Part shown: piece by piece, positions 7,623-28,564 of the stretch
How the letters are laid out: each line of letters begins with the position of its first letter
Numbering within the stretch: the stretch's first letter is position 1
Source of the DNA: Micromonospora sp. CPCC 205371
GTDB lineage: Bacteria; Actinomycetota; Actinomycetes; Mycobacteriales; Micromonosporaceae
DNA length: 64,000 bases
Assembly: GCF_026130045.1 (NCBI RefSeq)
Contig: NZ_JAIBNX010000013.1
Coordinates: forward strand, 5,805-69,804
Reading direction: 5' to 3'
Made by a program: the position numbers and the translations under genes
Notes under the pieces: model-generated
What the model saw: only the letters and a program-made list of their open reading frames with translations
What the model was told of the DNA's origin: nothing
The model's database searches: none

Positions 7623-9428
7623 TCATGACGCCGCACGCACGATCAGATCGTGCATGCGACGCCGGGTGAGCTCCATGCGGATGCGCCGGTCGCTGCGGGG
7701 ATCGGTCGTGGTGGGCGCGATGGGCTCGCTGAGGACGATGACCATCGTGGGTTTGCAGCGGAACACTCGCCCCATCCCGGTTGGCGGGGTGAAACGGATG
7801 GACAGCGGCACGACCGGTACGCGGGCCTGCGCGGCGAGATGGAACGCGCCCCGCTTGAAGTCGCGCAGGCTCGTGTCGTACGGCTTCAGCTCTCCCTCGG
7901 GGAAGAAGTGCACGATTCGTCCCTTGGCGAGGAAGAGCTCCATCTCGGAGAAGAAGGCTGGCAGCCCCGCCGGCGTGGACGGTACCGCGACACCACCCAG
8001 CAACCTCACCAGCCCCCCGTACCAGCGGTTCTGGAGATTTATCGGTGCCGAGGTGAAGACGACCCTGCGCGGAAACAAGGCGAGGGCGACGAGTGCGCTG
8101 TCGAGCATATGCACGTGGTTGCATACCGTGAGTGCGCCGCCGGCTCGCGGAAGCCGGCGCCGGCCTTCGATGCGGACCCCGAGGATTACGCGCGTCCAGA
8201 GGAAGAGCGCCGGAACCGCTATCACGTAATAGAAGGCGGTCGACAACAGCCTGTAGAGCCAGCCGGCGTATCCGGCCGGTGCCTCCGGCGCGCGATCTGC
8301 CCGCGCATAGACCCTCTCGATCGCCTTGATGCTCCGGTCGAGCGCGTAGAGCTTCCCGTACCGGGCGTAGGTGTCCGACAGGGTATCGAGGGCCGCTGGA
8401 TGGTCGATCCAGCCGTCGATCCGTTCGGCGAGCGATGACGGGTCACCGGAACGGAACAGGTTCCACGGCCCGAGCGCGAACTGGCCGGTCGCGCTTCGCC
8501 GGCTATCGGAGATGACCGGTACGAGCCCGCAGGAGAACGCCTCCATGCAGGAAAGCCCTTCGATTTCGACATCGGACGCGTGCACGTAGAGGTCACACCT
8601 ACGGATGAGTCCAATGAGCTCTTTTTGCGAGTAGTAGCCGAACTGTGCCGGATTCGGGAGCCTCGAGGCCATCCGGCGCAGGCGCATCTCCCATGGGCCG
8701 TGGCCCGCGAACTGCAACTGGATGCGTGCGGCGTGGCGCGATCGCTGGACGGCCCGGATCAGAACATCCTGCCGCTTCTCCGGGGAGAAACGGCCCACCA
8801 TGAGTATCCGGAACGGCTCATCGGCCTCTCGTGCTCGGGCAGGTCCCGGCTGGAAGCTACTGTCCACGCCGTTGGAGATGACGTGGAGCCGAGCCCGGTA
8901 GCCATGCCGGCGCAACTGCGCCGCGATGAACGTGGATGGACAGTGGATGTCGGCGAAACGTCCGTAGAACGCGAGGCGCAGCAGGATGTACACCACATGC
9001 GCGGCCGGGGGGAACCAGCCCAGACCAATGTTGTAGGTGATGTTTTCAGGCTGAATGTGGAATGCGGCGATGGCGGGCACCCCGAGCTGGCGTGCGATCC
9101 GCTCCGCGGCACGACCCAGCGGCCACGGTTGGTAGATGTGGACGACGTCGGCACCCTTGATCGCCGTGACCAGCACCTCTTGGACGGGCTTGGCGAACAG
9201 GGTGCTCTGGCGATGGGCGAGTCGGCTCGCGATCGGCACCACGAGTTCCGGAACGTAGAACATCTCGGGGCCCTCCGGCCCCTGCCCGGCCGTGCCGCCC
9301 GGTTCGCCGTACGAGACGACGCGCACCGTGTGCCCCCGCGAGACGAGAGCGGCGGCGAACCGCGTCGCCGACATGGTCGTGCCGTTGTTGTTGACATTGA
9401 ACGTGTCGGTGACCAGTGTGATGATCAT
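7623..9428 (-). CDS. GT4 glycosyltransferase fused to PlsC-like acyltransferase
   Basis: 601-aa bifunctional protein. Residues 1 to about 375 are a GT-B glycosyltransferase of family 4: an N-terminal donor-independent half beginning MIITLVTDTFNVNNNGTTMSA and a C-terminal half with FRILMVGRFSPEKRQDVLI and an E-x7-E-type region (DVEIEGLSCMEAF). After a hydrophobic segment (FYYVIAVPALFLWTRV, ~395-412) comes a 1-acylglycerol-3-phosphate acyltransferase domain with the HX4D catalytic motif (NHVHMLDS), and the FPEGEL motif. The two activities acting on one membrane product suggest synthesis of an acylated glycolipid such as a phosphatidylinositol-mannoside-like or diacyl-sugar lipid; that is inference. 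It is single-gene and divergent from the fibronectin protein. Confidence 0.92.
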   Translation of the reverse strand: MIITLVTDTFNVNNNGTTMSATRFAAALVSRGHTVRVVSYGEPGGTAGQGPEGPEMFYVPELVVPIASRLAHRQSTLFAKPVQEVLVTAIKGADVVHIYQPWPLGRAAERIARQLGVPAIAAFHIQPENITYNIGLGWFPPAAHVVYILLRLAFYGRFADIHCPSTFIAAQLRRHGYRARLHVISNGVDSSFQPGPARAREADEPFRILMVGRFSPEKRQDVLIRAVQRSRHAARIQLQFAGHGPWEMRLRRMASRLPNPAQFGYYSQKELIGLIRRCDLYVHASDVEIEGLSCMEAFSCGLVPVISDSRRSATGQFALGPWNLFRSGDPSSLAERIDGWIDHPAALDTLSDTYARYGKLYALDRSIKAIERVYARADRAPEAPAGYAGWLYRLLSTAFYYVIAVPALFLWTRVILGVRIEGRRRLPRAGGALTVCNHVHMLDSALVALALFPRRVVFTSAPINLQNRWYGGLVRLLGGVAVPSTPAGLPAFFSEMELFLAKGRIVHFFPEGELKPYDTSLRDFKRGAFHLAAQARVPVVPLSIRFTPPTGMGRVFRCKPTMVIVLSEPIAPTTTDPRSDRRIRMELTRRRMHDLIVRAAS

Positions 9429-9824
9429 CGTCGCGCCGCTGCTCTCCCGGGCGTGAATTCGAGGGTCCGGCTGTGGCTGTGCTCGGTGTCTTCGTGCACG
9501 ACGAACATGCGGACATCCTGACCCAACGAATGATCAGCAAGCTATCAAGCAGGTACTGGCGGGGTCAATCCTGCCGTAGACCGGACGGTAGATTGCTCTG
9601 ACCCGCGGGTGTGATCTCGATGGCGCGCCTGATCCGTGCGGCAGGCGCGCAAGAGGGCGCATGAGCTACCGGGCCTGGCGCACGTGCGCCCACCCCAAAC
9701 GCCGTTCGTGATCAGTGCCGGTTTCGGCCAGGTGGGAGCTCTTGTAGCCGCATGGTCGGTGGCCCAAGCTTTGTGTACCCCGGTGCGGGGCCTGGTGCTC
9801 CGTTCCTGAAGGGCGGGTACGCAA
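9429..9824 (+). other. Divergent intergenic region
   Basis: About 395 bases separate the minus-strand glycosyltransferase-acyltransferase gene from the plus-strand fibronectin gene, so promoters of both must lie here. I see no strong operator-like palindrome and no gene. Confidence 0.45.
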
Positions 9825-12800
9825 ATGAGAACAGTCTCGGGCCTGGCAGGCCCCCGGTCCGCGCGCCGTCTGCTCTCCGCGTTCCTCATCTCCGCGCTGG
9901 CGTCAGCGCTGACGGTCGTGCCGCGGCAGGCCCCCGCCGCCGCGGTGCCGGTCGGAGGCGTGTCAGCCGATGCCATGAACGCCATGTTCACCGACTACGG
10001 AGACGCGGGCGGCCACTGGACCGGTGGCGATAACACGGCATCGGTGGTGCTGCCGGACGGCCGAGTGGTGTGGCTGTTCGCGGACACGTTCCTGGGCACC
10101 GTCAACGCCGACCACACCCGTCCACTGAACTCACCGATGGTGAACAACACCATCGTGGTCCAAAGTGGCACGTCGCTCACGACCACATTGCACGGTGGCA
10201 CCGCGCAGGCGCCCGAGGCGCTGGTGAAGCCGACGCAGGAGGGGGAGTTCCTCTGGGCAGCCGACGGCACCGTGGAGAACGGCTCGTTGAAGGTCATGTA
10301 CAACCGGCTGCGCAAGACCGGCGAAGGCGTGCTCGACTTCGAGATGACCGGGGTTACGCTGGCCACCTTCGCATTGCCGGCCTTGACGTTGAGCTCGGTG
10401 GTGGATCTGCCGTTCGGCTCCGACATCAGCTGGGGCGCCGGGATCTTCCCCGACGGCGCGTACACGTACATCTACGGCATCTCGTCCGGCACCGGCTTCA
10501 TGAAGTTCGCGCACCTCGCCCGCGTGCCGGCCGGTGGGCTGTCCGGGCAATGGCAGTTTTGGACCGGCAGCACCTGGTCCACCGATCCCCAGTCGGCGAC
10601 CCGGCTGCTGAGCGGAGTCGGCGGGGGCGGCGTACAGAAGATCGGTTCTCAGTACGTATGGGTTAGCCATGAGAACAACCTGATGTTCGACTCCCAGATC
10701 GTGGCATACACATCGAACTCGCCGACCGGACCGTTCTCCGGTCCGACGCATCTGTTCACCGCGCCGGAGATGCAGCAGCCGGGCGTCATCATGTACGACG
10801 CCCGGGTGCACCCCGAGTTGGCCCGCAGCGGCAAGCTACTGGTCTCCTACAACCTCAACAGCCTGGAGCCGAACGGGACGTACGCGGACGTCCGGCAGGG
10901 ACGGCCCCGGTTCATAGAGATCGACTGGCCGCGACCCGCTCCTGGACCCGGCGTGCCCGCCGCGCCGGAGGGGCTCACGGTGACCGTGAACGGCGATCTC
11001 GCCGTGCTGCGCTGGCAGCCCGTGCCGGGTGCCACGTCGTACTGGCTGCACCAGCGTGACGTCACCGGCGGGCAGACGCACTTCGCTCGGGTGCCGACGT
11101 CGACGACCGCGACGCAGAAGGAAGCCGCGTTCCTGTTCGATGGGCACACCTACGAGTACAAGGTGACCGCGGCGAACGCCGCCGGAGCCGGCCCATTCTC
11201 GGCCACCGTGACCGCCACTGTGGACGTCCCGCCACCAGCGGCACCGAGCGGCGTCACCGCCACGGCTAACACGACGGGCGGCGTGACGGTCGCGTGGAGT
11301 GCCGTTCCCAACGTCTGGGGATACGCCGTGCACCGGCGGGACCTGACCGCTGGCGAGACCGAGTTCACCCAGGACGGCCAAGTCGACTCGTTGAGCACCC
11401 AGCTCGTGGCGGAGGATCTCCTACACGGCCACGAGTACGAGTTCGTCGTGACTGCGAAGAATGGCGGCGGCGACTCACCGCGTTCCGCCGCTGCACGCGC
11501 GACGGCACGCTACTCGCCACCCGCCCAAGTCACCGGGCTGGCCGCGACCCCCAAGGCCGACGGCTCGATCGAGCTGACGTGGGCAGAGGTCGCACCGGGA
11601 CTGTGGTACCAGGTGTACCAACGCGACGTGACAGCCGGCGACCCGGAATTCACGCAGCTGCCCCTGCCGGCCACCTCCACCACCCTAACCGCTGGCTACC
11701 TGCTCCACGGCCACGAGTACGAGTACAAGGTGGCCGCCATCAACGCGGGCGGCGAAGGGCCGGCGTCCGCCAGCGTCCGGGCGACCTCGAAGCTCGCACC
11801 GCCCGCCGCACCGACCGCACTGACGGCCACGGCGGCCGCCGCCGGCACGATTACGCTGGCCTGGACGGCATCCCACCCGGATATGGGGCATCTGGTTCAC
11901 ACGCCCGGCGTGACCGCCCCCGGGGGGGCGAGGTGGAATTCACCGCCTGGGAGTGGCCGGTGGTCGAGTGCTGCCAGGCGACGGCGGGACTCCTGACGCA
12001 CGATCACGAGTACGAGTTCAAGATCGTCGCCATCAACGCGGGAGGCGAGTCCGCGCCATCGAACCTTGTGCGGCAGACCGCCACGCTGCCGCAGACCGCC
12101 GCGCCAACCAACCTCCAAGCCGCACCGGGCGACCGGTCGGTCACTCTAACGTGGACCAGCCCCGACCCGGACGCCTGGCACTGGGTTTATCAAAGAGACG
12201 TTACCGCCGGGGAGGCCGGGTTCACACGGCTCGGTCTACCCGTGACCAGCTGCTGCACCTTCACGGCAACCGAGCTGACCAACGGCCACGCGTACCAGTT
12301 CCGGGTCGCGGCGATCGGCGCGGAGGGGGAGCCTGACAGCGCCCAGTCGAACACGGCATCCGCGACGCCGGCCGGCCAACCACCGGACGCGCCGAGCGAC
12401 CTCGTCGCCACACCGGGCAACGCCCAGGTATCTCTACAGTGGGCCGGCAGCACGACGCCTGGCGCCTGGTACTGGATCTACTCGCGGGACGTCACAGCTG
12501 GCCAGGCCTGGGTGAAGCTGGAGCTGCCCGTCACGACCTGCTGCACGTTCACCAGTACCGGTCTGGTCAACGGGCATACCTACGAGTTCAAGGTGGCCGC
12601 CATCGGCGCCGGCGGTCCGGATAGCCCACCGACCAATGTCGCGAGCGCTACACCCGTCGCACCGGCACCGGCCGCCCCGTCCAATCTGCGTGCGACCGCC
12701 GGAAGCGGGCAGGCGGTGCTGACCTGGACGGCCAGTTCGACGCCTGGCGCCTGGTACTGGGTCTACTCGCGGGACGTCACAGCTGGCCAGGCCTGGGTGA

Positions 12801-14443
12801 AGCTGGAGCTGCCCGTCACGACCTGCTGCACGTTCACCAGTACCGGTCTGGTCAACGGGCACACCTACGAGTTCAAGGTGGCCGCCATCGGCGCTGCTGG
12901 CGCGCCGGACAGCGCACCGTCCAACGTGGCCAGGGCGGTGCCGACCGCGCCGCGTCCCGGCCCTCCCACAAACCTGCAGGCGGTCGCCGGCAACGCGAAG
13001 GTCACCCTCACCTGGACCGCCAGCAGCACCGTCGGCGCGTGGTACTGGGTGTACATGCGGGACACGACCGCGGGCCAGACGTGGCAGAAGCTGGACCTGC
13101 CTGTCACCACGTGCTGCACGTTCACCAGCACGGGTCTGGTCAACGGCCATCGGTACGACTTCAAGGTGGTCGCCATCGGCTCCGGCGGCGGTCCGGACAG
13201 CTACGCGTCCAATGTGGTCAGCGCCCGGCCGGTGGCGCCGACGCCAGGCGCACCGTCCAACCTGCGCGCCACCGCCGGCAACGCCAAGGTGACGCTCACC
13301 TGGAACGCCAGCAGCACCGCTGGAGCCTGGTACTGGGTCTACTCGCGGAACGTCTCCGCTGGACAGTCGTGGCAGAAGAGCCGCTACCCGGTCAGTAGTT
13401 GCTGCACCTATGTCGCCGGCTACCTCACCAACGGCAACACCTACGAGTTCAAGGTGGCCGCGATCGGGTCCGGTGGAGCGCCCGACAGCGCATCGTCCAA
13501 TGTGGTGAGCGCCCGCCCGGTCGCGCCCACGCCGGCACCGCCGACCAACGTAAAGGCCGCGATCACTTCGTACGGCGTCGTGCTCACCTGGAATGCCAGC
13601 AGCACGCCCGGAGCCTGGTACTGGGTTGAGCGGCGCAACACCTCAGTGAACGAGGGCTGGAAGCGGTACCAATATCCGGTCTCCACCTGCTGCTCCTTCG
13701 TGGCCACCATGCTGAGCCACGGTATCCAGGAGTTCCGGCTGCGCTCCATCGGCTCCGGTGGCGCACCCGACAGCGCACCGTCCAATGTAGCCTCCGTCAA
13801 CTACTCTCCGCCGGCAGTTCCCACCGGCCTACACCTCAAGCTGACGACGTATCAGGGCAGCCGCGCCGTCAGCCTTTCCTGGAACCCTGGCAGGCAGGGC
13901 ACCACCTTCGTGATCCAGGCACGCAACCGCACGAAGAACGGTTCCTGGTACACCATCGCTGAGCGAGGCATCAACTGGTACACCTGGCCATGTGCCGGCA
14001 CCGATCTGTTCGAGTTCCGCGTGTACGCGGAGAACACCGTCGGGGCGAGCTGGTACTCCAAAAACGTGATGATGCTGGGCCCCAACGAGGGCTGGCAGCG
14101 GTACACCCCGCCGCAAAAGTTCCTCTGGGACAAGTACTCGCCCTGGTACCACGCGGGTAGCACCACCGAGGAGTGCCCGGTGCAACAGGAGTTCTGCTAC
14201 CGGTGGGTCCAGTTCTGGTCCAAGGGTGGCGAGTCCTACTGGCGTCACGGCACCAACGGACAGTTGGAGCGCTCGTTCCTCTCCGCTGCCACCTATTTCC
14301 GGTACAAGAGCTGTATCGCAAGCTGCTCCACGCCAGGCTCGTGGAACTGGGCCATCCTGCGGCCGTCGTGCCGCCCGAAGCAACAGTTCGGAAAGATCAT
14401 GGGAGTCGAGCCGTACCTCTGCTTCGTCTTCCACTGGTTGTGA
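9825..14443 (+). CDS. Giant secreted propeller plus fibronectin III protein, frameshifted
   Basis: A signal peptide (RRLLSAFLISALASALTVV, cut near APAAA) precedes a ~340-residue DUF4185/DUF5005-like domain with propeller-like features such as VVWLFADTFLG and ISWGAGIFPDGAYTYIYG. About ten fibronectin type III repeats follow (~95 aa each, 10.96-13.80 kb), then a Cys- and Trp-rich C-terminal domain. From the fourth repeat onward most repeats carry a Cys-Cys pair (TTCCTF). The frame breaks at about 11917-11930 in a C5G7 run: the 5' frame stops at 11996, while the downstream frame continues GGEVEFTAWEWP, exactly where the fourth repeat should go on. Reading through needs one extra base or a -1 shift. 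Whole product about 1,539 aa. Likely an extracellular carbohydrate-binding or sugar-active protein; the ligand is unknown. Confidence 0.85.
12454..12894 (+). repeat. Near-identical 156-bp duplication within fibronectin repeats
   Basis: Bases 12454-12609 and 12739-12894 differ at only two positions that I can find (ATCTAC versus GTCTAC, and GGGCAT versus GGGCAC), whereas the other repeats of this gene are clearly diverged. The unit is offset by 285 bp, one fibronectin repeat. This indicates recent duplication or gene conversion between the sixth and seventh repeats. Confidence 0.9.
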
Positions 14444-14643
14444 GCTGACACGGCGTGATCGTGTGGATCTTCGGTAGAGTGTTCCAGCGCCGCTGTCCTG
14501 AACCCCCATGGCGTCCGCCTCCCCAGGTCAACGGAGAACGCCCAAAGGGAGGCCGGGCGTACGCACGCAGTCGTCTATAAAGCGCCGTAGTCGGCCTCCA
14601 CCCAGCGCGGTAGGCCAACCGTGGCGCCTTCCCAGTCGCGATA

Positions 14644-15870
14644 TCAGTTGCTGCTGTCGCCCGGGCTGGTGTTGCGCCTGGTAGCGGCTCGTAGGGCGCC
14701 GCGCCAGCCCTGGTAGCCGCCGGCGCGTTCGAAGGAGCGGGCCACGACGATGTCGGTGGAGGAGTGGGCGACGATGGACAGCACGATGGTGAGGGCCACG
14801 AGGTGGAACACTTCGTCGGCGGCGGGGATGGCGGCCTCCAGGACTAGCAGGCCGTAGACCACCGAGGCGAATCCCTTGGGCCCGAACCACATCGCCGCTA
14901 CCTGTTCCCGTGTGGACAGTCCGGAGCGCAGGAACGATACCCAAAGCGCGAGCGGTCGGGCGACCACAATGGCCAGGATGGCGAAGACCCACCCGGTCCA
15001 CGGGATCTCGCCGAGGAATTCCAGCGAGATGAGCGCACCGAACACCAACAGCGCGGCCAGTTTCAGCAGTTCGGCAACGAGCTCCCCGAAGTGTTCGAAC
15101 GCTTCCCGCTGCCGAGGCCCGAAGGTGGCGACGGTAACACCGGCCGCGAACGCGGCAAGGAAGAGGTTTCCGTGGGTGACCTTACCCAGGGCAAGCACGA
15201 GCAGGCCGATTGCGACCGCGTTGAGGGGCTCGTAGGCGGTGGAGGCGGCGAAGAAGCGAGACTTTTCCAGCCGCAGCGCCAGCCATGGCACGGCTACCCC
15301 GATGACCAAGCCGACGACCAGCTCCGTGCCCAGCTCGCTCAGATGCAGACTGTCATGAGCGGCGATGGCGAGGAACAGCACCACGAACGGCAGCGCGAGG
15401 CCGTCGTTGACACCCGACTCGACGTTGAGCAGGTGCCGTAGCCGGGCGGGCACCTTGTCGTTGCCCACGAGGGCGGCGGCGAAGACCGGGTCGGTGGGGG
15501 CGAGGACCGCGCCGATGAGCAGGGCCTCTGGCCAGTCCAGTCCGGCTACGTACCGGGCCAGCAGGGCGGTGACGATCAAGGTGAGAGGCAGGCCCCAGCC
15601 CAGCGCTCGGCCGGGCAACCGCCATGCGGTGCGTAGGTCTGGCCAGCCGACGCGCATGCCGTCGGTGAACAGCACCGCGAACAGCGCCAGCTCGGCCAGT
15701 GTGGCCACGATCGGGGACTCGGGGGTCACGTCCAGTACGCCGGAGGTTTCCGGGCCGAGGGCGAAGCCGGCGGCCAGGAACAGCACGGCGGTGGACAGGA
15801 CGGTGCGATGGGCCAGGCTGGACAGCAGCACCGCGGCCAGCAGCACGAGCGCGAAGCACAGCAACAGCAT
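14644..15870 (-). CDS. Na+/H+ antiporter, CPA1 family
   Basis: 408-aa cation:proton antiporter with about 12 membrane helices. The core helix TDPVFAAALVGNDKVPARLRHLLNVESGVNDGLALPFV carries the NhaP-type ion-binding signature (the ND pair in SGVNDG) and the VLAPTDP motif. It exchanges cytoplasmic Na+ or K+ for external protons. I set the start at 15870 because GGAGGG lies 5 nt upstream and helix 1 (MLLLCFALVLLAAVLL) begins there; the frame is open for 36 more codons but that part overlaps the conserved leader element at 15908-15933. It begins the cation-homeostasis region and is transcribed alone. Confidence 0.93.
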   Translation of the reverse strand: MLLLCFALVLLAAVLLSSLAHRTVLSTAVLFLAAGFALGPETSGVLDVTPESPIVATLAELALFAVLFTDGMRVGWPDLRTAWRLPGRALGWGLPLTLIVTALLARYVAGLDWPEALLIGAVLAPTDPVFAAALVGNDKVPARLRHLLNVESGVNDGLALPFVVLFLAIAAHDSLHLSELGTELVVGLVIGVAVPWLALRLEKSRFFAASTAYEPLNAVAIGLLVLALGKVTHGNLFLAAFAAGVTVATFGPRQREAFEHFGELVAELLKLAALLVFGALISLEFLGEIPWTGWVFAILAIVVARPLALWVSFLRSGLSTREQVAAMWFGPKGFASVVYGLLVLEAAIPAADEVFHLVALTIVLSIVAHSSTDIVVARSFERAGGYQGWRGALRAATRRNTSPGDSSN

Positions 15871-15907
15871 CCGGACCCTCCAGGCGCAGGCACAGTGGTG
15901 GTAGGGG

Positions 15908-15933
15908 TGCCGACCAGACTTCCCGGCGCGCCT
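15908..15933 (-). promoter_or_regulatory. Conserved 26-nt leader element, copy A
   Basis: On the minus strand this reads AGGCGCGCCGGGAAG followed by TCTGGTCGGCA. It lies about 38 bp upstream of the antiporter start codon. The same element occurs upstream of three other minus-strand genes (17177, 18704, 26878). A TATGCT hexamer lies about 15 bp upstream. It is the only copy lacking GTG inside the element (GCG instead). Confidence 0.7.
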
Positions 15934-16026
15934 GAAGAGTGCCCGCAGAGCATATCTGGCGATCTTCCGAGTGCGCACCGGCCACGATGAACTCGCGATC
16001 CTGATACAGGGAACTGGCTGACCGGC

Positions 16027-17142
16027 TCACCCGCACGAGCGCGTCGCGTTGAGGATCGTTTGCGCGGCGGTGTGGTCGCCGAGCCGTCGGGTCAGATACA
16101 CGAAGGTTTGGCGCAGGGACGGGTTCACCGCGACCAGGTTTCCGCCGATCGCGGCGATGCCCCACTGGTTGTCGGCTTCGATGGTGACGCCGAGTCCGCG
16201 CCGTATCGGTCGGTCGAGCACCAGGTCGTAGCCGTGCACGTGAGCGGTGGTCATGGCGGCGGTGAGGTCCGAGTCGAGCGGGCCCGATCCGGCCGCCAGG
16301 CTGGCATACAGGTGCGCGAGGGCGGGTGCGGTGGCGTGGATGTTCACGGCCGGCATCGACGCCCTGCGGCACCAGGGGGAGTTCAGCACGTGGGGGTCAA
16401 GGCAGCCGTTGGGGTTGTTGAGGGCACGCTGCCGCACCGTGAACGGTTGTCCCACGGTCAGCTCGTACCACTGCGGGCTGCTGTACTCCACGTCGGCTGT
16501 GCGGGCGGCCTGGGTTGGGGTCAAGCCGAGCGCGATGTCCAGGTTATGTGGCCGGGCGATCTGGTCGCGTAGGTATACGCCGAGGGGCCTTCCATCGACA
16601 CGGCGGACGATCTCGCCGAGAAGGTGGCCGAAGGTCAGCGCGTGTTCGCCCACGGCGGTGCCGGGTTGCCATTCCAGGACCGCGGCGGCCAGGTCGTGTG
16701 CGAGCACGTCCCAACGTGGGAGCGAGTGCGCGGGGCGCGGGATGGGAAAGGCCGGCAGGCCGGCGCTGTGGGTCAGGATGTGGCGGACCAGGACTTGATC
16801 TTTACCGCCGGTGGCGAAGGAAGGCCAGTAGCGGACCACCGGTGCGTCTACGTCGATCACGCCCTGGGACGCCAACATCAGGACCGCGACGGCGGCGACC
16901 GGCTTGCCAGCGCAGAACAGGGGCGTCAGCGTGTCCGGCGCCCAGGGTCGGCTGCGGGCGGCGTCCTGCCAGCCGCCGCGTAGGTCAAGCACGAGTTGGC
17001 CGTCTCGGATGACGGCGACCGCTGCCCCTGTCTCCCGCTCGTCGTCGAGAAGCTGCCCGAACGCTTCACAGACGGTGGTGAAGCGCCGATCTACCCAGCC
17101 GGTGACCGGTGCACGGCTCGCTACGGGCCCCACCTGTGGCAT
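16027..17142 (-). CDS. Beta-lactamase-fold hydrolase homologue with altered catalytic residues
   Basis: 371-aa protein of the class C beta-lactamase/EstB esterase family. Landmarks: a first motif at LFCAGKPVAAVAVLMLASQG, where the family has SxxK with the nucleophilic Ser; HILTHSAGLPAFP, a family signature; GEHALTFGHLLGEIVRRVDG, where the family usually has GYHALTFG with the catalytic Tyr; and a C-terminal NLVAVNPS region. Here Ser is replaced by Cys (codon TGC) and Tyr by Glu; the Lys is kept. No signal peptide. It may be an inactive or changed enzyme. The GGAGGG 10 nt upstream supports the start at 17142, and the transcript carries leader element copy B. Its place between two antiporters is unexplained. 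Confidence 0.86.
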   Translation of the reverse strand: MPQVGPVASRAPVTGWVDRRFTTVCEAFGQLLDDERETGAAVAVIRDGQLVLDLRGGWQDAARSRPWAPDTLTPLFCAGKPVAAVAVLMLASQGVIDVDAPVVRYWPSFATGGKDQVLVRHILTHSAGLPAFPIPRPAHSLPRWDVLAHDLAAAVLEWQPGTAVGEHALTFGHLLGEIVRRVDGRPLGVYLRDQIARPHNLDIALGLTPTQAARTADVEYSSPQWYELTVGQPFTVRQRALNNPNGCLDPHVLNSPWCRRASMPAVNIHATAPALAHLYASLAAGSGPLDSDLTAAMTTAHVHGYDLVLDRPIRRGLGVTIEADNQWGIAAIGGNLVAVNPSLRQTFVYLTRRLGDHTAAQTILNATRSCG

Positions 17143-17176
17143 GTCGCTCGTATCCCTCCGCGTTGGGGTTAGGACA

Positions 17177-17202
17177 TGCCGACCAGGCTTCCCGGCGCAC
17201 CT
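17177..17202 (-). promoter_or_regulatory. Conserved 26-nt leader element, copy B
   Basis: Minus-strand AGGTGCGCCGGGAAG then CCTGGTCGGCA, about 35 bp upstream of the hydrolase homologue. A TAGGCT -10-like hexamer ends 6 nt before the element, so the transcript would begin at or next to its first A. Confidence 0.75.
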
Positions 17203-17317
17203 ACTGGCAGCCTACCGTCACTGATCGTGACCACGGTCTCGGCCGTCGGAGAATGTCGGACGACTGCTTGGCCGCGCGGTCGGCCATGTCCGTTGTCCTT
17301 GTCCACGACGATGAGCC

Positions 17318-18616
17318 TCAGGCGAGGGCGAAGTAGCGCAGCCACAGGTATGGCACGGCGAGTGCGACCGTGACGACGGTGACCACGAGGCCGTACTTGG
17401 TGAACTGCCAGAACGTGATCGGCTTGCCGGCGCGCTCGGCGATGCCCAACACCACTACGTTGGCCGAGGCACCCACCGCCGTAGCGTTGCCGCCAAGATC
17501 CGCGCCGAGCGCGAGGGCCCACCACAGCACCTGGGACTGGCTGCCGCCGCCGTTGGAGTTGACCATCTCGGCGACCACCGGGCTCATGGTGGCCACGTAC
17601 GGAATGTTGTCCACGATCGCCGACAGGAATGCGGAGCCCCACAGCAACACCATCGAGGCGAAGAACAGCCGCCCCTCGGTGGCGTCGGTGGCGGCGCGGG
17701 AGATCTCCTCGATCACTCCGGTGGCTACCAGGGAGCCGACCATGACGAACAGGCCGGCGAAGAACACCAGGGTAGGCCATTCCACGTCCCGGGCGATCTC
17801 GCTGGCGTTGAGGCGGGACAGGGCGAGCAGTGCGAGCCCGCCGACCATCGCGACCACCGAGGGTTCGAGGTGCAGCACGGTGTGCAGGACGAATGCGGCG
17901 GTGACCACCGCGAGGACGGCCATGCTGATGACGAGCAGTCGGCCGTCGCGGATGGCGTCCCGCTCGCGCAGCGCTGCTATCTCGGCGGCGCGTTCCGGGT
18001 CGTACCGGAATGCGGACCGAAACAGGATGCGGCACAGGAGGACGAAAACCACCATCAGCAGTACCACGAACGGGGCAAGGTGGATCAGGAAGTCGTTGTA
18101 CGACAGCCCGGCCCGGCTGGCGATGATGATATTGGGCGGGTCGCCTACGAGGGTTGCGGTGCCGCCGATGTTGGAGGCCAGGACCTCGGCGATCAGGAAC
18201 GGCGCGGCCGGAACCCCGAGACGTTCGCAGACCAGGAACGTGACCGGTGCGATCAGCAGCACGGTGGTGACGTTGTCGAGCATCGCGGAGGCGACCGCCG
18301 TGACGAGCACGAGCAGCACCATGACGCGGAACGGGCGACCTTTGGCGCGTTTGGTCGCCCAGATCGCCAGGTACTCGAAGGCGCCGGTGCGTTTGATTAC
18401 CGCGACGATGAGCATCATCCCGACCAGTAGGAAGATGACGTTCCAGTCGATGCCGGCCTCTTCAGAGAAGAACGCGTGTTCGGCATCGGTGGCACCGATC
18501 AGCAGCATCACCGCTGCGCCACCCAGCGCGGCGGCGACCCGGTGCACCTTCTCGGTAGCAATGAGCACGTAGGCGGCGGCGAAAACCGCGACTGCGGCCC
18601 AAGCGGTGGCGCTCAT
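17318..18616 (-). CDS. NhaD/ArsB-type ion permease
   Basis: 432-aa permease of the ion transporter superfamily (ArsB/NhaD/SLC13 related), with about 11-12 helices. Typical stretches are GIDWNVIFLLVGMMLIVAVIKRTGAFEYLAIW, ASAMLDNVTTVLLIAPVTF and GGTATLVGDPPNIIIASRAGLS (the DPPN loop), repeated in the second half as SAIVDNIPYVATMSPVV and LGGNATAVGASANVV. Members exchange Na+ for H+ or extrude arsenite; with its neighbours, Na+/H+ antiport is the better guess. The start MSATAW at 18616 is reached by coupling: a 16-codon upstream ORF with a good ribosome binding site ends in TGA overlapping this ATG. Leader element copy C lies further upstream. Confidence 0.9.
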   Translation of the reverse strand: MSATAWAAVAVFAAAYVLIATEKVHRVAAALGGAAVMLLIGATDAEHAFFSEEAGIDWNVIFLLVGMMLIVAVIKRTGAFEYLAIWATKRAKGRPFRVMVLLVLVTAVASAMLDNVTTVLLIAPVTFLVCERLGVPAAPFLIAEVLASNIGGTATLVGDPPNIIIASRAGLSYNDFLIHLAPFVVLLMVVFVLLCRILFRSAFRYDPERAAEIAALRERDAIRDGRLLVISMAVLAVVTAAFVLHTVLHLEPSVVAMVGGLALLALSRLNASEIARDVEWPTLVFFAGLFVMVGSLVATGVIEEISRAATDATEGRLFFASMVLLWGSAFLSAIVDNIPYVATMSPVVAEMVNSNGGGSQSQVLWWALALGADLGGNATAVGASANVVVLGIAERAGKPITFWQFTKYGLVVTVVTVALAVPYLWLRYFALA

Positions 18617-18663
18617 CGAGCCATCCGGGCGCAAGACACGGCGGCCATGGTGGTGGCGGGCAT
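18613..18663 (-). CDS. Upstream leader ORF coupled to the permease gene
   Basis: A 16-residue frame, MPATTMAAVSCARMAR, starts with ATG 9 nt after GGAGG and ends in TGA that overlaps the permease ATG (ATGA). The permease itself has only a poor Shine-Dalgarno sequence, so translation of the short frame probably delivers ribosomes to it. Because it lies between leader element C and the permease, it could serve as a read-out of leader control. The peptide is not recognised. Confidence 0.6.
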   Translation of the reverse strand: MPATTMAAVSCARMAR

Positions 18664-18703
18664 AGAGTAGTCCTCCGGTCGGTCGTCGTGCTTGTGTTAC
18701 GAC

Positions 18704-18728
18704 GCCGACCAGGCTTCCCGGCACACCT
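18704..18728 (-). promoter_or_regulatory. Conserved leader element, copy C
   Basis: Minus-strand AGGTGTGCCGGGAAG then CCTGGTCGGC, with TAGGAT ending 7 nt before it. A GTG inside the element opens the short frame MCREAWSAS, which stops immediately after it. The permease leader ORF follows about 40 nt downstream. Confidence 0.75.
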
Positions 18729-18760
18729 GGCGATCATCCTACCTGACCAGTGGCGGCCTC

Positions 18761-19435
18761 CTAGTCGGCCTCGGCGAACCGTTCCAGGTCGCTGATCGAG
18801 CCGACCACGAGGATGTGATCTCCGTACATCAGCACGGTGTCGGCGGTGGCGTACCCGAACCGGGCGTCGCTGCCCTCCGCCTCGCTTTTGACCGCGACCA
18901 CGGTGACGCCGTACTTGCTGCGCAGCCGGGACTCCCGCAGCGGCATGCCGACGATGTCCCGGGGCGGCTTCGCCTTGATGATCGCGAAGTCCTGGTCGAC
19001 CTCGACGTAGTCGAGCATCCGTCCGGACAGCAGGTGCGCGACCCGTTCGCCCATGTCCTGCTCGGGCAGCACGACGTGGTGGGCGCCGACCCGGCGCAGG
19101 ATGTCGGCGTGCCGTGGGTTGAGTGCTTTGGCCCAGATATCGGTTATGCCCAGGTCAGTCAAGAGGGCGGTGGTGAGGATGCTGGCCTGGATGTCGGTGC
19201 CGATCGCCATGACGGCGCGCCGGAACTCGGGCACGCCGAGCTGCCGCAGGGCTTCGATGTCGGTGCAGTCGGCGGTGGCCACGTTGGCGAGTTGGCCGGC
19301 CAGCTCACGCACCACCTTGTTGCTGCTGTCGATGCCCAGCACCTCGGTGCCGCGGCTGACCAGCTCCATCGCTAGGGCGCTGCCGAACCGGCCGAGGCCG
19401 AGCACGACCACAGGCTCGTTGTGGATGTTAGCCAA
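18761..19435 (-). CDS. Trk/Ktr K+ uptake regulatory NAD-binding subunit
   Basis: 224-aa peripheral protein with an RCK_N Rossmann domain (VVVLGLGRFGSALAMELVSRGTEVLGID, dinucleotide-binding GxGxxG) and an RCK_C domain in the last ~80 residues. It forms the gating ring of a TrkH/KtrB channel and responds to ADP/ATP, NAD(H) or c-di-AMP in relatives. The single RCK_N/RCK_C arrangement and length match KtrA or CglK-type proteins rather than the duplicated TrkA. Its start overlaps the 3' end of the channel gene by 8 nt, so the two are translated together. Confidence 0.94.
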   Translation of the reverse strand: MANIHNEPVVVLGLGRFGSALAMELVSRGTEVLGIDSSNKVVRELAGQLANVATADCTDIEALRQLGVPEFRRAVMAIGTDIQASILTTALLTDLGITDIWAKALNPRHADILRRVGAHHVVLPEQDMGERVAHLLSGRMLDYVEVDQDFAIIKAKPPRDIVGMPLRESRLRSKYGVTVVAVKSEAEGSDARFGYATADTVLMYGDHILVVGSISDLERFAEAD

Positions 19436-20795
19436 CGATCGTCCTCTCCTCGGGCCGCTCGAACCGGCGGCCCCGCTCCCGCACTGCCAGCGCGGACGCC
19501 ACGGTCAAGGGACCGACGCGGCCGATGAACATCAACCCCACCAACAGCAGTACCGCCGGGGGTGGCAGGTCGGCGGTGATGCCGGTGGACAGCCCGACGG
19601 TACCGAACGCGGAGATAGCTTCGAACAGCACACGATCGAGGCTGTGTTTGGTGAGGCCGAGCAGCACGAAGGTGGATACCGCCACCGCTCCGATGCCCAG
19701 CAGGGCGATCGCGAGGGCTTGGCGCTGGTTGCTGGCCGGTATCCGGCGCCGGCCGACGATCACGCTGGTCTCGCCGCGCATCTCGGACCAGATCACGAAG
19801 GCGAGCAGCCCGAACGTGGTCACCTTGATGCCGCCGGCGGTGCCGGCGCTGCCCCCGCCGATGAACATCAGGAGGTCGGTGGCGAACAGGCTCTCCGGTC
19901 GCATCGCGCCCACGTCCACGCTGTTGAACCCGGCGGTGCGGGTCATCGCCGAGTGGAAGAACCCGGCCAGCAGCTTTTCCGGCCCGTGCAGCGGTCCGAA
20001 CGTGCCGGGGTTGGCGCGCTCGACGACCGTGAACACGATCGTGCCGACCGTGAGGAGCACCGCGGTGAGCAGCACGGTTAGCCGCGTCAGCACCGACCAG
20101 GTCTTCGGGCGGCGCCACGCGCGAGCCAGCTCGAACACCACCGGGAAGCCCAACCCGCCGATGATCACCGCAACCGCCACGGTCAGGCTGATCACAGGAT
20201 CATCCGCGTAGGCCATCAGGCTGTCGACGTTGAGGGAGAAACCGGCGTTGTTGAACGCCGAGATGGCGTGGAAGACCCCGTGGTAGATGGCCTGGCCGAC
20301 CGACTTGTCGTAGGCGGTGGCGAACCAGATCGTGAGGATGGCCGCGACCACCCCCTCTACGGCCAGGCTGAAGACCACGATGTTGCGCACCACGCGCCGG
20401 ATGTCGGTCAGTTGCAGCGCCTTGGTTTCAGCCTGTGCTAGCAGCCGGCTGCGCAGCGCCAGCCGCCTCGACCACAGCACCGTGAACAGGGTGGCCAGGG
20501 TCATGATGCCCAGCCCACCGGCCTGGATCAGGGCGAGGATGACCAGCTCGCCGAACACCGACCAGTGCCCGCCGGTGTCCACGGTGACCAAGCCGGTCAC
20601 GCAGACCGCCGATGTGGCGGTGAACAGCGCGTCCGCGAGGTGGGCCCGCTGTCCGGTTTCGGTGGCCACCGGCAGGGACAGCAGTAGCGTGCCGGCGAGG
20701 ACTGCGGTGGCGAACCCACCCACGATCGTACGGGTGGGGTGCTGGAAGCGGTCGGATGTGCGCCGCCACGACTGCGCCGGAGGCCACCGGAGCAT
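19428..20795 (-). CDS. TrkH/KtrB-type K+ channel subunit
   Basis: 455-aa membrane protein of the TrkH family with repeated membrane-pore-membrane units. Pore segments with the selectivity glycines are visible: TATSAVCVTGLVTVDTG, HAISAFNNAGFSLN, AMTRTAGFNSVDVGAM and EAISAFGTVGLSTGIT. It imports K+ (often Na+-coupled in Ktr) and is gated by the RCK protein encoded next to it. The start at 20795 gives a short cytoplasmic lead (about 22 residues) before helix 1. The pair forms the first of three K+ uptake systems in this window. Confidence 0.95.
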   Translation of the reverse strand: MLRWPPAQSWRRTSDRFQHPTRTIVGGFATAVLAGTLLLSLPVATETGQRAHLADALFTATSAVCVTGLVTVDTGGHWSVFGELVILALIQAGGLGIMTLATLFTVLWSRRLALRSRLLAQAETKALQLTDIRRVVRNIVVFSLAVEGVVAAILTIWFATAYDKSVGQAIYHGVFHAISAFNNAGFSLNVDSLMAYADDPVISLTVAVAVIIGGLGFPVVFELARAWRRPKTWSVLTRLTVLLTAVLLTVGTIVFTVVERANPGTFGPLHGPEKLLAGFFHSAMTRTAGFNSVDVGAMRPESLFATDLLMFIGGGSAGTAGGIKVTTFGLLAFVIWSEMRGETSVIVGRRRIPASNQRQALAIALLGIGAVAVSTFVLLGLTKHSLDRVLFEAISAFGTVGLSTGITADLPPPAVLLLVGLMFIGRVGPLTVASALAVRERGRRFERPEERTIVG

Positions 20796-20882
20796 CGAAC
20801 CTCCGCACCCGTCTTGAGCAGATGATCTCGTCCCGGCACACAGTACGTGGTCAGCGCGGCCGGCGGGGTTCGCGCCGGAGGC

Positions 20883-22268
20883 CTAGGCGGCGAGGCGGCG
20901 CAGCGCTCGCGGTACGAGCAGGATCAGCCACAGGCCGGCGCAGCACGCGCCGAGGGCGAGGTCGGCCGGTTGCGCGCCCTGCCACGTTTGGACGATCCAG
21001 TACGTGGGCAGCGGCACGAACATCCAGCTGGCGGCGCCGGTCAACCACCATGCGGCGAGCGGGGCGTAGGCGGGTAGGCCGAGGGCTTTGGTGGCGGCGA
21101 TGCCTTCGACCCGGTTGTCGGTGGTGGCGAGCACGGCGAGGGTGAAGGCCGGGGCGAGGGGGACGGCGAGCAGGCAGGACGGCCACGCGGTGGCCGGCAC
21201 GAGTGCGGACAGCGGTGCCGCAATGGCCAGCCCGGCGGCGGCGAACGCGGTGACCAGGCCGAGCCGGTAGGCCAGGTACCGGCGCACGCCGAGAGGGCTG
21301 ACGCGGATCGTGTGCAGGGCGCCGTCGTCGCGGTCGTCGAGCACGAGCAGCGCGCCGATCATGCCGGCGACGATTGGGACGTGCAGCACGACCGCCAGCA
21401 GCGCGATGACGGGAAGGTAGCCGGTCAGGTCGATGCCGTGAACCCGGTCGATCCATCCGGTGAGCGGTGGTATCGCGAGGCGCAGCAGCAGGCCGAGCAG
21501 CAGCGGGCTGGCCGCGATCGGCCACACGATCGCCTCGCGGGAGATGTTGCGCAGGTCGGCCCGCGCGTAGGAGGGCCGGCCACCGGAGGCAACCGCCCGT
21601 CGCGGCGGTGATGGTGTGCCAGTCCCGGTACCGGTGGCCGTGCGTACCGCGTGCCCGACCGCGGGGACGGCCCACGCGGCGAGGTATCCGAGCAGCAGCG
21701 GGGGCGGATACGGAGCATTCCCGCGCAGGAGGGCGAGCGCACCGGTCGTGGGTATCGCGTACCAGAGTGGATGCGGCAGCAGACCGGCCGCGGCGGCCAA
21801 GGGCACCGCCAGCAGCGGCGCGAGCAGCCACGGCGCGGTGGTCAAGAATCCCATGAGGGTACGCCGCCGGTGAGCGACGGTCAGCCCGGCGGCCATCAGC
21901 ATCAATGCGGTGAGGGCGACGGCGGCGAGTCGGACCCCGATCCGACCGCCGGAGGCGATCACGATCGGGACGGCGGCCACCACGATGAGGGTCCACAGTG
22001 GCGTGATCCGGGTGGCGGCGATGGCGGCGGGTCGGACCGGACTCACCATGAGGACGGCGGTGACGCCGGTGGCGCGGTCGGCGACGACCAAGGCCCCGGC
22101 GATGAATACACCAACGGCGGTGACCTCGACGAACAGCAGGTACGGCGCCGCGAGCGGGGCCACGGCTGCCAAAACGGTCCACGGTACGGCCAGGCCGAGC
22201 ACGAGGTGCGGGATGCGGTGCCGGGCCTGCACCCGCCACTGCAGACCTAGCAGCGCGAGCGTGGTCAC
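20883..22268 (-). CDS. ABC transporter permease
   Basis: 461-aa protein with two halves, each with about six membrane helices, separated by a polar Gly/Thr/Pro-rich linker (TGTGTGTPSPPRRAVASGG). This duplicated layout resembles actinobacterial fluoroquinolone-type export permeases. No nucleotide-binding motif is present; the ATPase is the adjacent upstream gene, whose stop overlaps this start by 4 nt. A TetR repressor gene is divergent from the pair. The exported substrate is unknown, probably a toxic compound or lipid. Confidence 0.86.
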   Translation of the reverse strand: MTTLALLGLQWRVQARHRIPHLVLGLAVPWTVLAAVAPLAAPYLLFVEVTAVGVFIAGALVVADRATGVTAVLMVSPVRPAAIAATRITPLWTLIVVAAVPIVIASGGRIGVRLAAVALTALMLMAAGLTVAHRRRTLMGFLTTAPWLLAPLLAVPLAAAAGLLPHPLWYAIPTTGALALLRGNAPYPPPLLLGYLAAWAVPAVGHAVRTATGTGTGTPSPPRRAVASGGRPSYARADLRNISREAIVWPIAASPLLLGLLLRLAIPPLTGWIDRVHGIDLTGYLPVIALLAVVLHVPIVAGMIGALLVLDDRDDGALHTIRVSPLGVRRYLAYRLGLVTAFAAAGLAIAAPLSALVPATAWPSCLLAVPLAPAFTLAVLATTDNRVEGIAATKALGLPAYAPLAAWWLTGAASWMFVPLPTYWIVQTWQGAQPADLALGACCAGLWLILLVPRALRRLAA

Positions 22269-23119
22269 AGCGGGCCGCCGGCCACCGCGATGAACACGTC
22301 GGCCAGGGTGGCTTCGCTGGAATGGATGGTCTGCACCGTGCCGGTGGCCAACAGGTCGCGCAGCCCTGGGTCGCCCGTACCCGGGAAGGTGGCGCGCGCC
22401 GGGGCGCCGCCCGCCGTGTACTCGACGGTGACCGTCGGTGTGCCGTGGGCCAGCCGCAGCGCCCGCGGTGCGTCAACGGCGACCAGCCGGCCGGCGTGCA
22501 TGAAGGCGACGCGGTCACACAGATGGTCGGCGGTGGCCATGTCGTGGGTGGTCAGGAAGACGGTACGGCCGGCGGCGGCCTGCCCGGCGATGATTGCCCT
22601 AACCTGCGCGGCGTGGCTGGGGTCAAGGCCGGAGGTGGGCTCGTCGAGGAACAGCAGGTCCGGCTCGTGCAGGATGGCCCGCGCGAGGTTGAGCCGGACC
22701 TGCATGCCCTTGGACAGGTCGGCCGCGCGCCGGTCGGCCACGTCGGCGAGCCCCACCGCGTCCAGGGCCCGGGCGACGGCGGGCATCGCGCGGTGGTGGA
22801 GGCCGGCGAACGCGGCCAGGTTCTCCCGGCAGGTCAGCTTCGGGTAGTGCGCCGGCTGCTCGAAGCCGACCCCGATACGCCGGTACAGGTCGGCGCCCCA
22901 TTCCTGTACCGGGCGGCCCAGCACCACCAACTCGCCCTGGAATTTTCGAAGCTGCCCGGTCAACGCCTTCTGGGTGGTGGACTTGCCGGCCCCGTTCGGG
23001 CCGAGGAAACCGAACACCTCGCCGGCGGAGATGGCGAAGTCGATGCCAGCCACCGCGTCGCTGGCCGCGCGGGGGTAGCGGACCCGTAATCCGGACGCTC
23101 GCACCACCACATCTCGCAC
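22265..23119 (-). CDS. ABC transporter ATP-binding protein
   Basis: 284-aa ABC ATPase. Walker A is [17 protein letters not shown], the signature is the slightly degenerate DLSKGMQVRLNLARAI, Walker B is [13 protein letters not shown], and the H loop is FLTTHDM. It energises the permease encoded immediately downstream. The intergenic region to the divergent TetR gene carries a palindrome overlapping its likely promoter, so expression is probably repressed until an inducer binds TetR. Confidence 0.93.
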   Translation of the reverse strand: MRDVVVRASGLRVRYPRAASDAVAGIDFAISAGEVFGFLGPNGAGKSTTQKALTGQLRKFQGELVVLGRPVQEWGADLYRRIGVGFEQPAHYPKLTCRENLAAFAGLHHRAMPAVARALDAVGLADVADRRAADLSKGMQVRLNLARAILHEPDLLFLDEPTSGLDPSHAAQVRAIIAGQAAAGRTVFLTTHDMATADHLCDRVAFMHAGRLVAVDAPRALRLAHGTPTVTVEYTAGGAPARATFPGTGDPGLRDLLATGTVQTIHSSEATLADVFIAVAGGPL

Positions 23120-23130
23120 GCTATGAAGAG

Positions 23131-23145
23131 TTGCACGCGATGCAA
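23131..23145. promoter_or_regulatory. Probable TetR operator
   Basis: TTGCA-CGCGA-TGCAA is a perfect 5-bp inverted repeat with a 5-bp spacer, set between the divergent ABC and tetR genes. On the minus strand a TTGACG -35-like hexamer lies just upstream, so a bound repressor would block the ABC operon promoter. Only 52 bp separate the two start codons. Confidence 0.6.
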
Positions 23146-23171
23146 GTTTACGTCAACTGTAGGATGGCGGC

Positions 23172-23774
23172 GTGGTCGAGGCGGAGATGGGTCTGCGGGA
23201 GCGCAAGAAGCAGCGGACCCGACAGACGTTGGCGGACGCGGCCCTGCGGCTGTTCATGGAGCGCGGCTACCAACACACCACCGTGGCCGATATCGCCGCC
23301 GCGGCGGATGTGTCGACCCGTACCTTCTTCAGCTACTTCCCCGCCAAGGAGGACGTGGTTTTCGCTGACACGGATGAGCGCATCGCGGCGATGCGTGAGG
23401 CGTTGGCCGGCCTGCCCGCCGGTACCCCGCCGGCACGGGCGGCGCACCGCATGGTGGAGCGGGTGTTCGCCGCCGGCGGCGCTCTGTTCGGCCCGGACCG
23501 CGCCGCGCGGGCCGCCCTCGTGGTCAGCAGTCCTGAGCTACGCGCCAAAGCCCTGGAACGCCTCCTGGCCGCCCAGCAGCAGTTCGCCGGCTGGCTGCGC
23601 ACCGCGTACCCAGACATGGACCCGGTGCGGGCGGCGGCCGTCGCCGGCGCGCTCATTGGCGGCCTGGTCGGCGCGGCGCTGGCCAGCTTCGAGCGCGGCG
23701 ACCCTGTGGACCGGCTCCGCAGCGCACTGGACGGAGCGGTCACGCTGCTCGAAGAAGGCGTTCGCGCCAGCTGA
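23172..23774 (+). CDS. TetR-family transcriptional regulator
   Basis: 200-aa regulator. The N-terminal helix-turn-helix RERKKQRTRQTLADAALRLFMERGYQHTTVADIAAAADVSTRTFFSYFPAKEDVVF is a textbook TetR_N domain of the AcrR type. The C-terminal ligand domain is not assignable. The start is GTG at 23172 (VVEAEMG); a TAGGAT hexamer ends just 6 nt upstream, so the mRNA may be leaderless. It most likely represses the divergent ABC exporter and itself. Confidence 0.93.
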   Translation: MVEAEMGLRERKKQRTRQTLADAALRLFMERGYQHTTVADIAAAADVSTRTFFSYFPAKEDVVFADTDERIAAMREALAGLPAGTPPARAAHRMVERVFAAGGALFGPDRAARAALVVSSPELRAKALERLLAAQQQFAGWLRTAYPDMDPVRAAAVAGALIGGLVGAALASFERGDPVDRLRSALDGAVTLLEEGVRAS

Positions 23775-23832
23775 CCCGCCCTGGCCGCGGCGGTCACCGG
23801 CCATCGGTGGTCATAGGTCTTACCCTACCGAT

Positions 23833-25887: not shown

Positions 25888-25892
25888 GAAGG

Positions 25893-26321
25893 GTGAGCGA
25901 GCCGACCACGCCACTGGACAGCCGCAACCCGCTCGAACTGGCTGCCGCATCCGCCGCATTGATCACCGCCACCACGGTCGCCGCGGCACTGTTCCCGGCC
26001 GCCGACACCTCCGCCCGTCTTGTGGTGATGGCCATCGCCGTCGGCGGCTGCGCGGCGCTGACCCGGGCCCGCACCGCCCTGTCTACTGCCGGCCTGGGAT
26101 ACCTGCTGTTCACCGGATTCCTTGTCAACACCCAGGGCGAACTCACCTGGGATGGCACCACCAGCTCGTGGCGGCTTGCGACGATCACAACCGCCACCGG
26201 GCTCGGGCAACTGTGCCGTTGGATCCAGGCGGCCAGAATCGAGGCCGCCGTCGACGCCGAACTACGGCAACTGCTCGATGAAGCGGCATCGGGTAGGGGA
26301 AACGGGCACCATCCCGCGTGA
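25893..26321 (+). CDS. Small membrane protein linked to K+ transport, copy 1
   Basis: 142-aa protein with about four predicted helices. Its middle, GLGYLLFTGFLVNTQGELTWDGTTSSWR, is nearly identical to the 92-aa protein at the head of the kdp operon (GLGCLLFTGFLVNRYGELTWDGTTSVWR). It begins at GTG 25893, with GGAGG 8 nt upstream inside the end of the KimA-like gene, so the two are co-transcribed. I know no function for this family. Its double association with K+ importers suggests an accessory or regulatory subunit. Confidence 0.78.
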   Translation: MSEPTTPLDSRNPLELAAASAALITATTVAAALFPAADTSARLVVMAIAVGGCAALTRARTALSTAGLGYLLFTGFLVNTQGELTWDGTTSSWRLATITTATGLGQLCRWIQAARIEAAVDAELRQLLDEAASGRGNGHHPA

Positions 26322-26369
26322 TCCACGCCGCGGCAGGCAGATGCGGCTTCGGGTGTCGAGCCAGTCGGA

Positions 26370-26699
26370 TCAGGCGAACTGCGCGGCGCCCCAGTAGTGG
26401 GAGCGCACCTCAAGCGCGTGGGGCTCGGCGAGCATGTTGCCGACCAGCGGCGAGAAGTTGGGGGCGCTGGTGATGGTCGGCATGGTATGCGGCACCCAGA
26501 TTGCTTCACCGTCGAGCTCGGCCTGCTCCAGGTCAACCAAGCGGGTGGACTTGCGGATCAGCCCGTAGGTGACCGCGGCGGCTCCGCCTGGGGCGTTCAT
26601 GTCGGTCGGGTACTGGTAGACCGCGGTGATCTTCCCGACCGGCTGGTAGTCGCTGTCGCGCAGCTCGCGGCCGATCAGGTCGTCGACGGGTAGAGACAT
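26370..26699 (-). CDS. PRC-barrel domain protein
   Basis: 109-aa protein. The first ~75 residues, DLIGRELRDSDYQPVGKITAVYQYPTD, resemble the PRC-barrel fold, which binds RNA, protein or photosynthetic reaction centre in different families. The ATG has GGAGGTGCGAC directly upstream. A leader of about 200 nt lies before it and begins with leader element copy D. Its stop faces the stop of the preceding membrane protein across 48 bases, with no obvious terminator. Confidence 0.75.
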   Translation of the reverse strand: MSLPVDDLIGRELRDSDYQPVGKITAVYQYPTDMNAPGGAAAVTYGLIRKSTRLVDLEQAELDGEAIWVPHTMPTITSAPNFSPLVGNMLAEPHALEVRSHYWGAAQFA

Positions 26700-26877
26700 G
26701 TCGCACCTCCAGCATCAGGCTGTGGTGCACGGTGCCCGGCCCGGTGGCGACGCGGGATCCGTCGCCTTCTCGTCCCAGCGCGCGTGCCCAGCGTGGTTTC
26801 CGGCTGGGCATGGGAGAGCGGCGCTAGAGCGACGAAGGATCATCGGTGGCCTCATGATCGGGAACTCGTGCTTGTAA

Positions 26878-26903
26878 TGCCGACCAGACTTCCCGGCGCA
26901 CCT
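26878..26903 (-). promoter_or_regulatory. Conserved 26-nt leader element, copy D
   Basis: Minus-strand AGGTGCGCCGGGAAG then TCTGGTCGGCA, with TATCCT ending 7 nt before it. It lies about 180 bp upstream of the PRC-barrel start, the longest leader of the four. A GTG within the element opens a 23-codon frame (MRREVWSALQARVPDHEATD...) ending in TAG. The intervening 26700-26877 has no other gene I can support. Confidence 0.75.
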
Positions 26904-27040
26904 ACCGCTCAGGATACGGAACGTTAAGGCGGAACGCACGGCCAGCAATCGACAACTCTCGCCGCCGGGCGGGTTGCCGGCCGCCGTTGCGGTGCCGGCC
27001 TCGTGCGGTACAGTACGTTCAGTATCTTCTTAACGCCGCC

Positions 27041-27592: not shown

Positions 27593-27650
27593 GCGCACAC
27601 TCAGCGGTTCGTCGTAGTCCAACCCTGCCCTCATTTATAGAGGAGTGTCA

Positions 27651-28564
<914 letters not shown>

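Follow-up and report, generated by a model that had tools for sequence, protein, structure and literature searches.

A class C/family VIII-fold protein with cysteine and glutamate at the catalytic serine and tyrosine positions in an ion-transport cluster of Micromonospora sp. CPCC 205371

The stretch of Micromonospora sp. CPCC 205371 DNA analyzed here (64,000 nucleotides, referred to below as the window) carries a cluster of ion-transport genes encoding an NhaP-type antiporter, a CitMHS/ArsB-type transporter, and TrkA-type and TrkH-type proteins. Between the first two of these lies an ORF whose product has the fold of class C beta-lactamases and family VIII esterases. The features of this locus are, in window coordinates:

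14647..15870, NhaP-type antiporter gene, downstream of the hydrolase-fold gene
15909..15927, minus strand, copy of the leader ahead of the NhaP-type antiporter gene
16027..17142, minus strand, class C beta-lactamase/family VIII esterase-fold ORF, 371 aa, ATG start, Cys replacing the nucleophilic Ser and Glu the Tyr
16141..16164, minus strand, altered third motif W327-G-I-A-A-I-G-G334 (equivalent of KTG/H-x-G)
16624..16626, minus strand, His173 codon CAC
16645..16647, minus strand, Glu166 codon GAA in GEHALTFG (catalytic Tyr position, from alignment)
16903..16905, minus strand, Lys80 codon AAG (invariant in the family)
16912..16914, minus strand, Cys77 codon TGC in FCAGK (SxxK position, from the sequence read and alignment)
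17178..17196, minus strand, leader element GCCGGGAAGCCTGGTCGGC, about 36 nt upstream of the hydrolase-fold gene's ATG
17321..about 18634, CitMHS/ArsB-type transporter gene, upstream of the hydrolase-fold gene
18704..18722, minus strand, copy of the leader ahead of the CitMHS/ArsB-type transporter gene
26879-26897, minus strand, fourth leader copy in the window

An ORF of 1049 aa with fibronectin type III repeats also occurs nearby (11294-14443, plus strand).

A sequence-only reading of this DNA had placed the gene between two ion exchangers on one transcript with a shared leader. The flanking transport genes are present as described, but each gene has its own copy of the leader, a 19-nt element (GCCGGGAAGNCTGGTNGGC) that precedes the hydrolase-fold gene and both of its neighbors, at 36-39 nt from the start codon of the antiporter and hydrolase-fold genes and ~70 nt from the first in-frame start of the transporter. 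With at most one mismatch, the element was found in 19 of 21 relative genomes, including the window's own, compared with 1 of 21 for a reversed control. Among ten proteins encoded downstream of the element (nine from relative genomes and one from the fourth copy in the window), six were NhaA, NhaP-type or Na/Ca exchangers, while the remaining four were a CBS domain protein, an ABC ATPase, a response regulator and a protein with no family. The ORF downstream of the fourth copy (26370-26699, minus strand) encodes 109 aa without a Pfam match. The element often lies directly 3' of a -10-like TAGGNTG. An Rfam scan of window positions 8000..32000 returned no match to the element at E values up to 1, and its sequence, searched as text, was found in no paper of the literature searched. 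We consider the leader a candidate ion-responsive regulatory RNA or operator.

The protein matches the PF00144 beta-lactamase family with 206.2 bits (E 9.3e-61; curated cut-off 27 bits), and its AlphaFold model has a mean pLDDT of 95.2 (alignments of 51 rows, comprising the protein and 50 of 80 loci from named species). The best solved structural matches of this model were 8j5v (Z 51.1, rmsd 1.3 over 346 residues) and 7y3z (Z 50.8), such that the model and the structure matches agree on the three-dimensional fold of family VIII and class C enzymes, as the sequence-only reading had proposed. The family-VIII-type esterases 8j5v (EstZF172), 7y3z (FEH), 5gmx, 5gkv and 3zyt (EstA) share the fold, the Lys and the layout of the protein at Z 43-51 and 26-37% identity, and the fold is also shared with EstB (1ci8, Z 36.5) and with the AmpC-type class C beta-lactamases 5evi and 3s1y (Z 31.3). 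Narrower models were not reached, with 28.7 bits for the NCBIfam class C model (cut-off 415) and 141.1 bits for the LipL esterase/beta-lactamase model NF052353 (equivalog cut-off 650). No obvious signal peptide was seen at the N-terminus when read by eye. The gene is intact, and we read its product as a probably cytoplasmic hydrolase of the class C/family VIII fold.

The active site departs from that of these relatives at three places. Tblastn and profile alignment place Cys77 in the nucleophile column and Glu166 in the Tyr column, and alignments to the structures 7y3z, 8j5v and 5gkv concur. The aligned columns hold Ser and Tyr in all five of the esterases above (5/5), whereas the protein has Cys, Glu and an IAA third motif. 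Beside Cys77 there is no Ser able to restore an SxxK motif, and the Lys of CAGK is intact (Lys80). The remaining signatures, which had also been taken as intact, are not all so, since the third motif reads GIAAIGG compared with GMGG(I/L)GG in most of the protein's closer relatives. Esterases of families VIII.1-3 are listed with S-X-X-K, Y-X-X, and either W-X-G (VIII.1, VIII.2) or H-X-X (VIII.3) (PMC9795927, Table 1). The corresponding residues here are C77-A-G-K80, Glu166-His-Ala in place of a Y-X-X with catalytic Tyr, and I329-A-A, and the Y-A-N and K-T-G of class C beta-lactamases are replaced by EHA and IAA. Compared with EstB and AmpC, the protein thus lacks the Ser, the Tyr and the KTG/WGG box.

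To place these departures among relatives, we collected homologs from named species genomes (80 loci) and from further whole genomes, and read the active-site columns in 276 distinct rows (4 lack one or more columns, two of these lacking all; one locus, L010, is split over two rows that read Ser-Lys and Glu-His, respectively). Glu occupies the Tyr column in 194 of the 276 rows, and the Glu change is therefore a subfamily trait. Lys80 is invariant in these Glu-type sequences wherever it was read. His173 accompanies Glu in 192/194 of them and is rare with Tyr (5/79 Tyr-type rows). On a tree of 78 sequences from a set of 235 distinct ones (156 Glu, 79 Tyr), built without columns 77, 166, 173 and 329, Tyr and Glu are separated by a single change, and the Glu clade has support 95/91. 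The Glu-type sequences are a monophyletic, mostly actinobacterial subfamily, of which Glu166 is the mark. By its Glu166, Lys80 and His173, and by its position inside the Glu clade, the protein in the window belongs to this subfamily, which includes Micromonospora, Actinoplanes, Asanoa, Nocardioides, Kribbia and others. In class A enzymes, Glu166 sits on the omega loop (PMC12073871); the Glu166 described here occupies a different position, and the shared number is a coincidence.

Within the protein's own taxonomic family, a match at E <=1e-65 was found in 161 of 354 genomes, and most of these matches, although not all, were read for their residues. Beyond that family, the Glu type was found in Nocardioides, Kribbia, Intrasporangium and Humibacillus, as well as in a Streptosporangiaceae isolate, an Acidimicrobiaceae MAG and a Dehalococcoidia MAG. 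In the window's own genus it occurs in just one of six genomes; the best matches in the other five reach at most 308 bits, compared with 608, and are Tyr-type where read. The genome that holds the window has 19 PF00144 loci, with 12 Tyr and one Glu among the 13 in which the Tyr column could be read, and 15 Ser and one Cys among the 16 with a readable nucleophile column; the Glu and the Cys both belong to the gene described here.

The Cys has a much narrower distribution. The nucleophile column was read in 193 Glu-type sequences, of which 192 have Ser and one, the copy in the window, has Cys; counting the split L010, which reads Ser in its other piece, Ser77 is present in 193/194. Homologs that keep both changes had been suggested as a check, and the outcome is divided: Glu is kept in 194 distinct sequences and Cys in this copy alone. 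Nor is this a unique copy among homologs with normal Ser and Tyr, as its nearest relatives combine Ser with Glu. The closest relative found has 51% identity. On the tree, the copy in the window is basal to a group of mainly Micromonosporaceae within the Glu clade, on an end branch of 0.77 (median 0.31), and Ser and Cys are separated by two changes, one leading to this copy and the other to a group in Pseudomonas. The conservation of Ser (but for one sequence), Lys and Glu over wide divergence speaks for catalysis in the subfamily.

The third motif sets this copy further apart from the other Glu-type members. In a reading of 234 rows (180 distinct), the beta-3 strand of the Glu subfamily is mostly WGMGG(I/L)GG, compared with W327-G-I-A-A-I-G-G here, and the near-uniform Gly-Gly at positions 330 and 331 (Gly in at least 98% of Glu-type members) is replaced by Ala330 and Ala331. 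Extending the comparison to all near-invariant positions (177 sequences, 146 of them Glu-type), we found that 98% or more of the other Glu-type members agree at 36 positions, 30 of which the copy keeps. K80, E166, H173, H125, N254, N267, H269, R259 and D306 are all retained in it. The six departures at this level (S77C, L98V, W258C, W315R, G330A and G331A), three of them within the SxxK or beta-3 motif and the other three outside these, are the joint highest number in the subfamily (L267: 6/38). At lower thresholds several deep members show more departures; at 90%, the copy in the window is exceeded by six other members and equaled by one, so its overall loss of constraint is not exceptional. 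These features fit a constrained protein with a rebuilt active site and not a dead gene. Cys258 is a second unusual cysteine in this copy, at a position with Trp in 145/156 Glu-type sequences.

The genomic setting of this copy also differs from that of other Glu-type genes. A photolyase, phytoene synthase, polyprenyl synthetase and amine oxidoreductase neighborhood was found at 10 to 12 of 33 Glu-type loci, and in many Micromonosporaceae ordinary Glu-type genes adjoin a photolyase and carotenoid-type gene set (e.g. L068 7142-12098); for the other Glu-type branch, no common partner was found among the neighbors. Set against this photolyase/carotenoid setting, the ion-gene setting indicates that the copy in the window differs from the ordinary genes in its place as well as in its active site. 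The exact leader was absent near Glu-type genes from all 80 named-species loci (0/80), which rules out the ion-gene link as a trait of the subfamily. An antiporter neighbor was considered as a shared feature, and was found at 3 of 33 clustered loci, including the window, too few for a claim. In two Nocardioides, a PF00999 NhaP-type antiporter gene lies near and downstream of the Glu-type gene (L127 8634-10130, L141 7406-8893).

Cys in the same column was found in 11 distinct Pseudomonas sequences, comprising four named loci (L133, L135, L137, L145) and seven distinct sequences from genomes of the genus (L272-L277, L318). They form one clade (support 100/100), sister to Ser-type Pseudomonas paralogs, and resemble the copy in the window in having Cys with Lys, but differ from it in retaining Tyr and HxG and in their separate origin. 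A match was detected in 198 of 199 Pseudomonas genomes, mostly the Ser-type paralog at ~50% identity; the Cys type, recognized by an identity of at least 63%, gave nine matches in eight genomes, all with Cys where read, and stands in tandem with a Ser-type paralog in at least two of the genomes read (L137/L270 and L277). Omega within the Cys clade ranges over 0.055-0.146 (the 16 of 55 pairs with dS <1). This purifying selection shows that selection can keep Cys at the nucleophile position in this fold, and it adds plausibility to a possible thiol mechanism in the copy in the window.

Combining these results, we tentatively favor, at slightly below even confidence, a reading in which the copy in the window is an active thiol enzyme of a Ser-Lys-Glu subfamily of family-VIII-like hydrolases, with Cys77 in place of Ser. 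In ordinary members, Lys80 and Glu166 would stand in for the Lys-Tyr pair and move protons to and from Ser77, Glu166 acting as general base. From thiol chemistry, Cys77 would need less help to ionize, and water or some other acceptor would then resolve the acyl-thioenzyme that it forms, while the change of Gly-Gly to Ala-Ala in beta-3 could alter the pocket wall or slow deacylation. The product might then be a thioesterase, an acyltransferase or a slow hydrolase with an altered substrate, expressed alongside the ion exchangers; the reactivity of Cys77, the co-expression with the exchangers and any substrate are elements that we infer. Several observations count against such an enzyme: the Cys is found in a single copy whose best relative has 51% identity, the end branch is long, and G330A, G331A, W258C and W315R fall at near-invariant positions. 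The side chain of Glu is also shorter than that of Tyr, which counts against a Glu-based enzyme.

Because the beta-3 strand is altered too, a binding role is nearly as likely as a thiol enzyme. The protein would in this case be a pseudoenzyme that has kept the fold and the pocket, lost turnover and now binds an acyl group or a ligand; it might be a sensor or regulator linked with ion exchange. Three catalytic elements are off the family VIII pattern (Ser replaced by Cys, Tyr by Glu and HxG/MGG by IAA), other near-invariant residues are lost on a long branch, and the gene is surrounded by cation transporters that carry the same leader, all of which favor such a role; however, Cys in place of Ser is still a nucleophile, which neither Ala nor Gly would be, the residues Lys80, Glu166 and His173 are all kept, and the separate Pseudomonas Cys clade is under purifying selection.

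We consider it improbable that codon 77 reflects an error of sequencing or assembly, or that an otherwise normal Ser-Lys-Glu enzyme acquired it very recently by point mutation. The Cys was seen in a single copy, and the Ser codon TCC, used in 20 of the 146 Glu-type sequences read, is one base from TGC; yet a single miscall does not explain the change of GG to AA in the same active site, and the lineage of this copy is long and separate. Most improbable of all is a decaying gene on its way out, for which the loss of several near-invariant positions and the occurrence of the Glu type in a single genome of the genus could be cited, as the ORF has no stop or frameshift, shows the codon-position GC of a coding gene (0.73/0.52/0.84), retains 30 of 36 near-invariant positions and has its leader element 36 nt 5' of the ATG, whereas neutral drift simulated from three relatives to 50% identity (substitutions only) left zero stops in just 2, 4 and 3 of 200 runs. 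The earlier view of a gene that is not decayed is therefore upheld by the absence of stops, together with the pLDDT of 95 and the Z of 51 to family-VIII-type esterases.

Returning to the thiol enzyme, a history that may account for it, and that we regard as plausible but still short of even confidence, is that of a naturally occurring Cys-Lys-Glu enzyme with the serine-beta-lactamase fold, in which a change of Tyr to Glu in an ancestor of the mostly actinobacterial subfamily was followed by Ser to Cys in this lineage, Cys having arisen separately in Pseudomonas. No description of natural Cys or Glu variants at these positions was found in the literature searched, which was largely without subscription journals; by its fold the protein is of a known kind, and by its active site it may, on this limited search, be new. 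What Tyr and Lys do in family VIII and class C enzymes is described as controversial (PMC9795927), and a large natural subfamily with Glu in place of Tyr and an invariant Lys offers a ready experiment on the role of the second residue. The two separate natural lineages with Ser changed to Cys likewise provide a handle on the circumstances in which a thiol nucleophile is tolerated in this fold, and on the chemistry that results.
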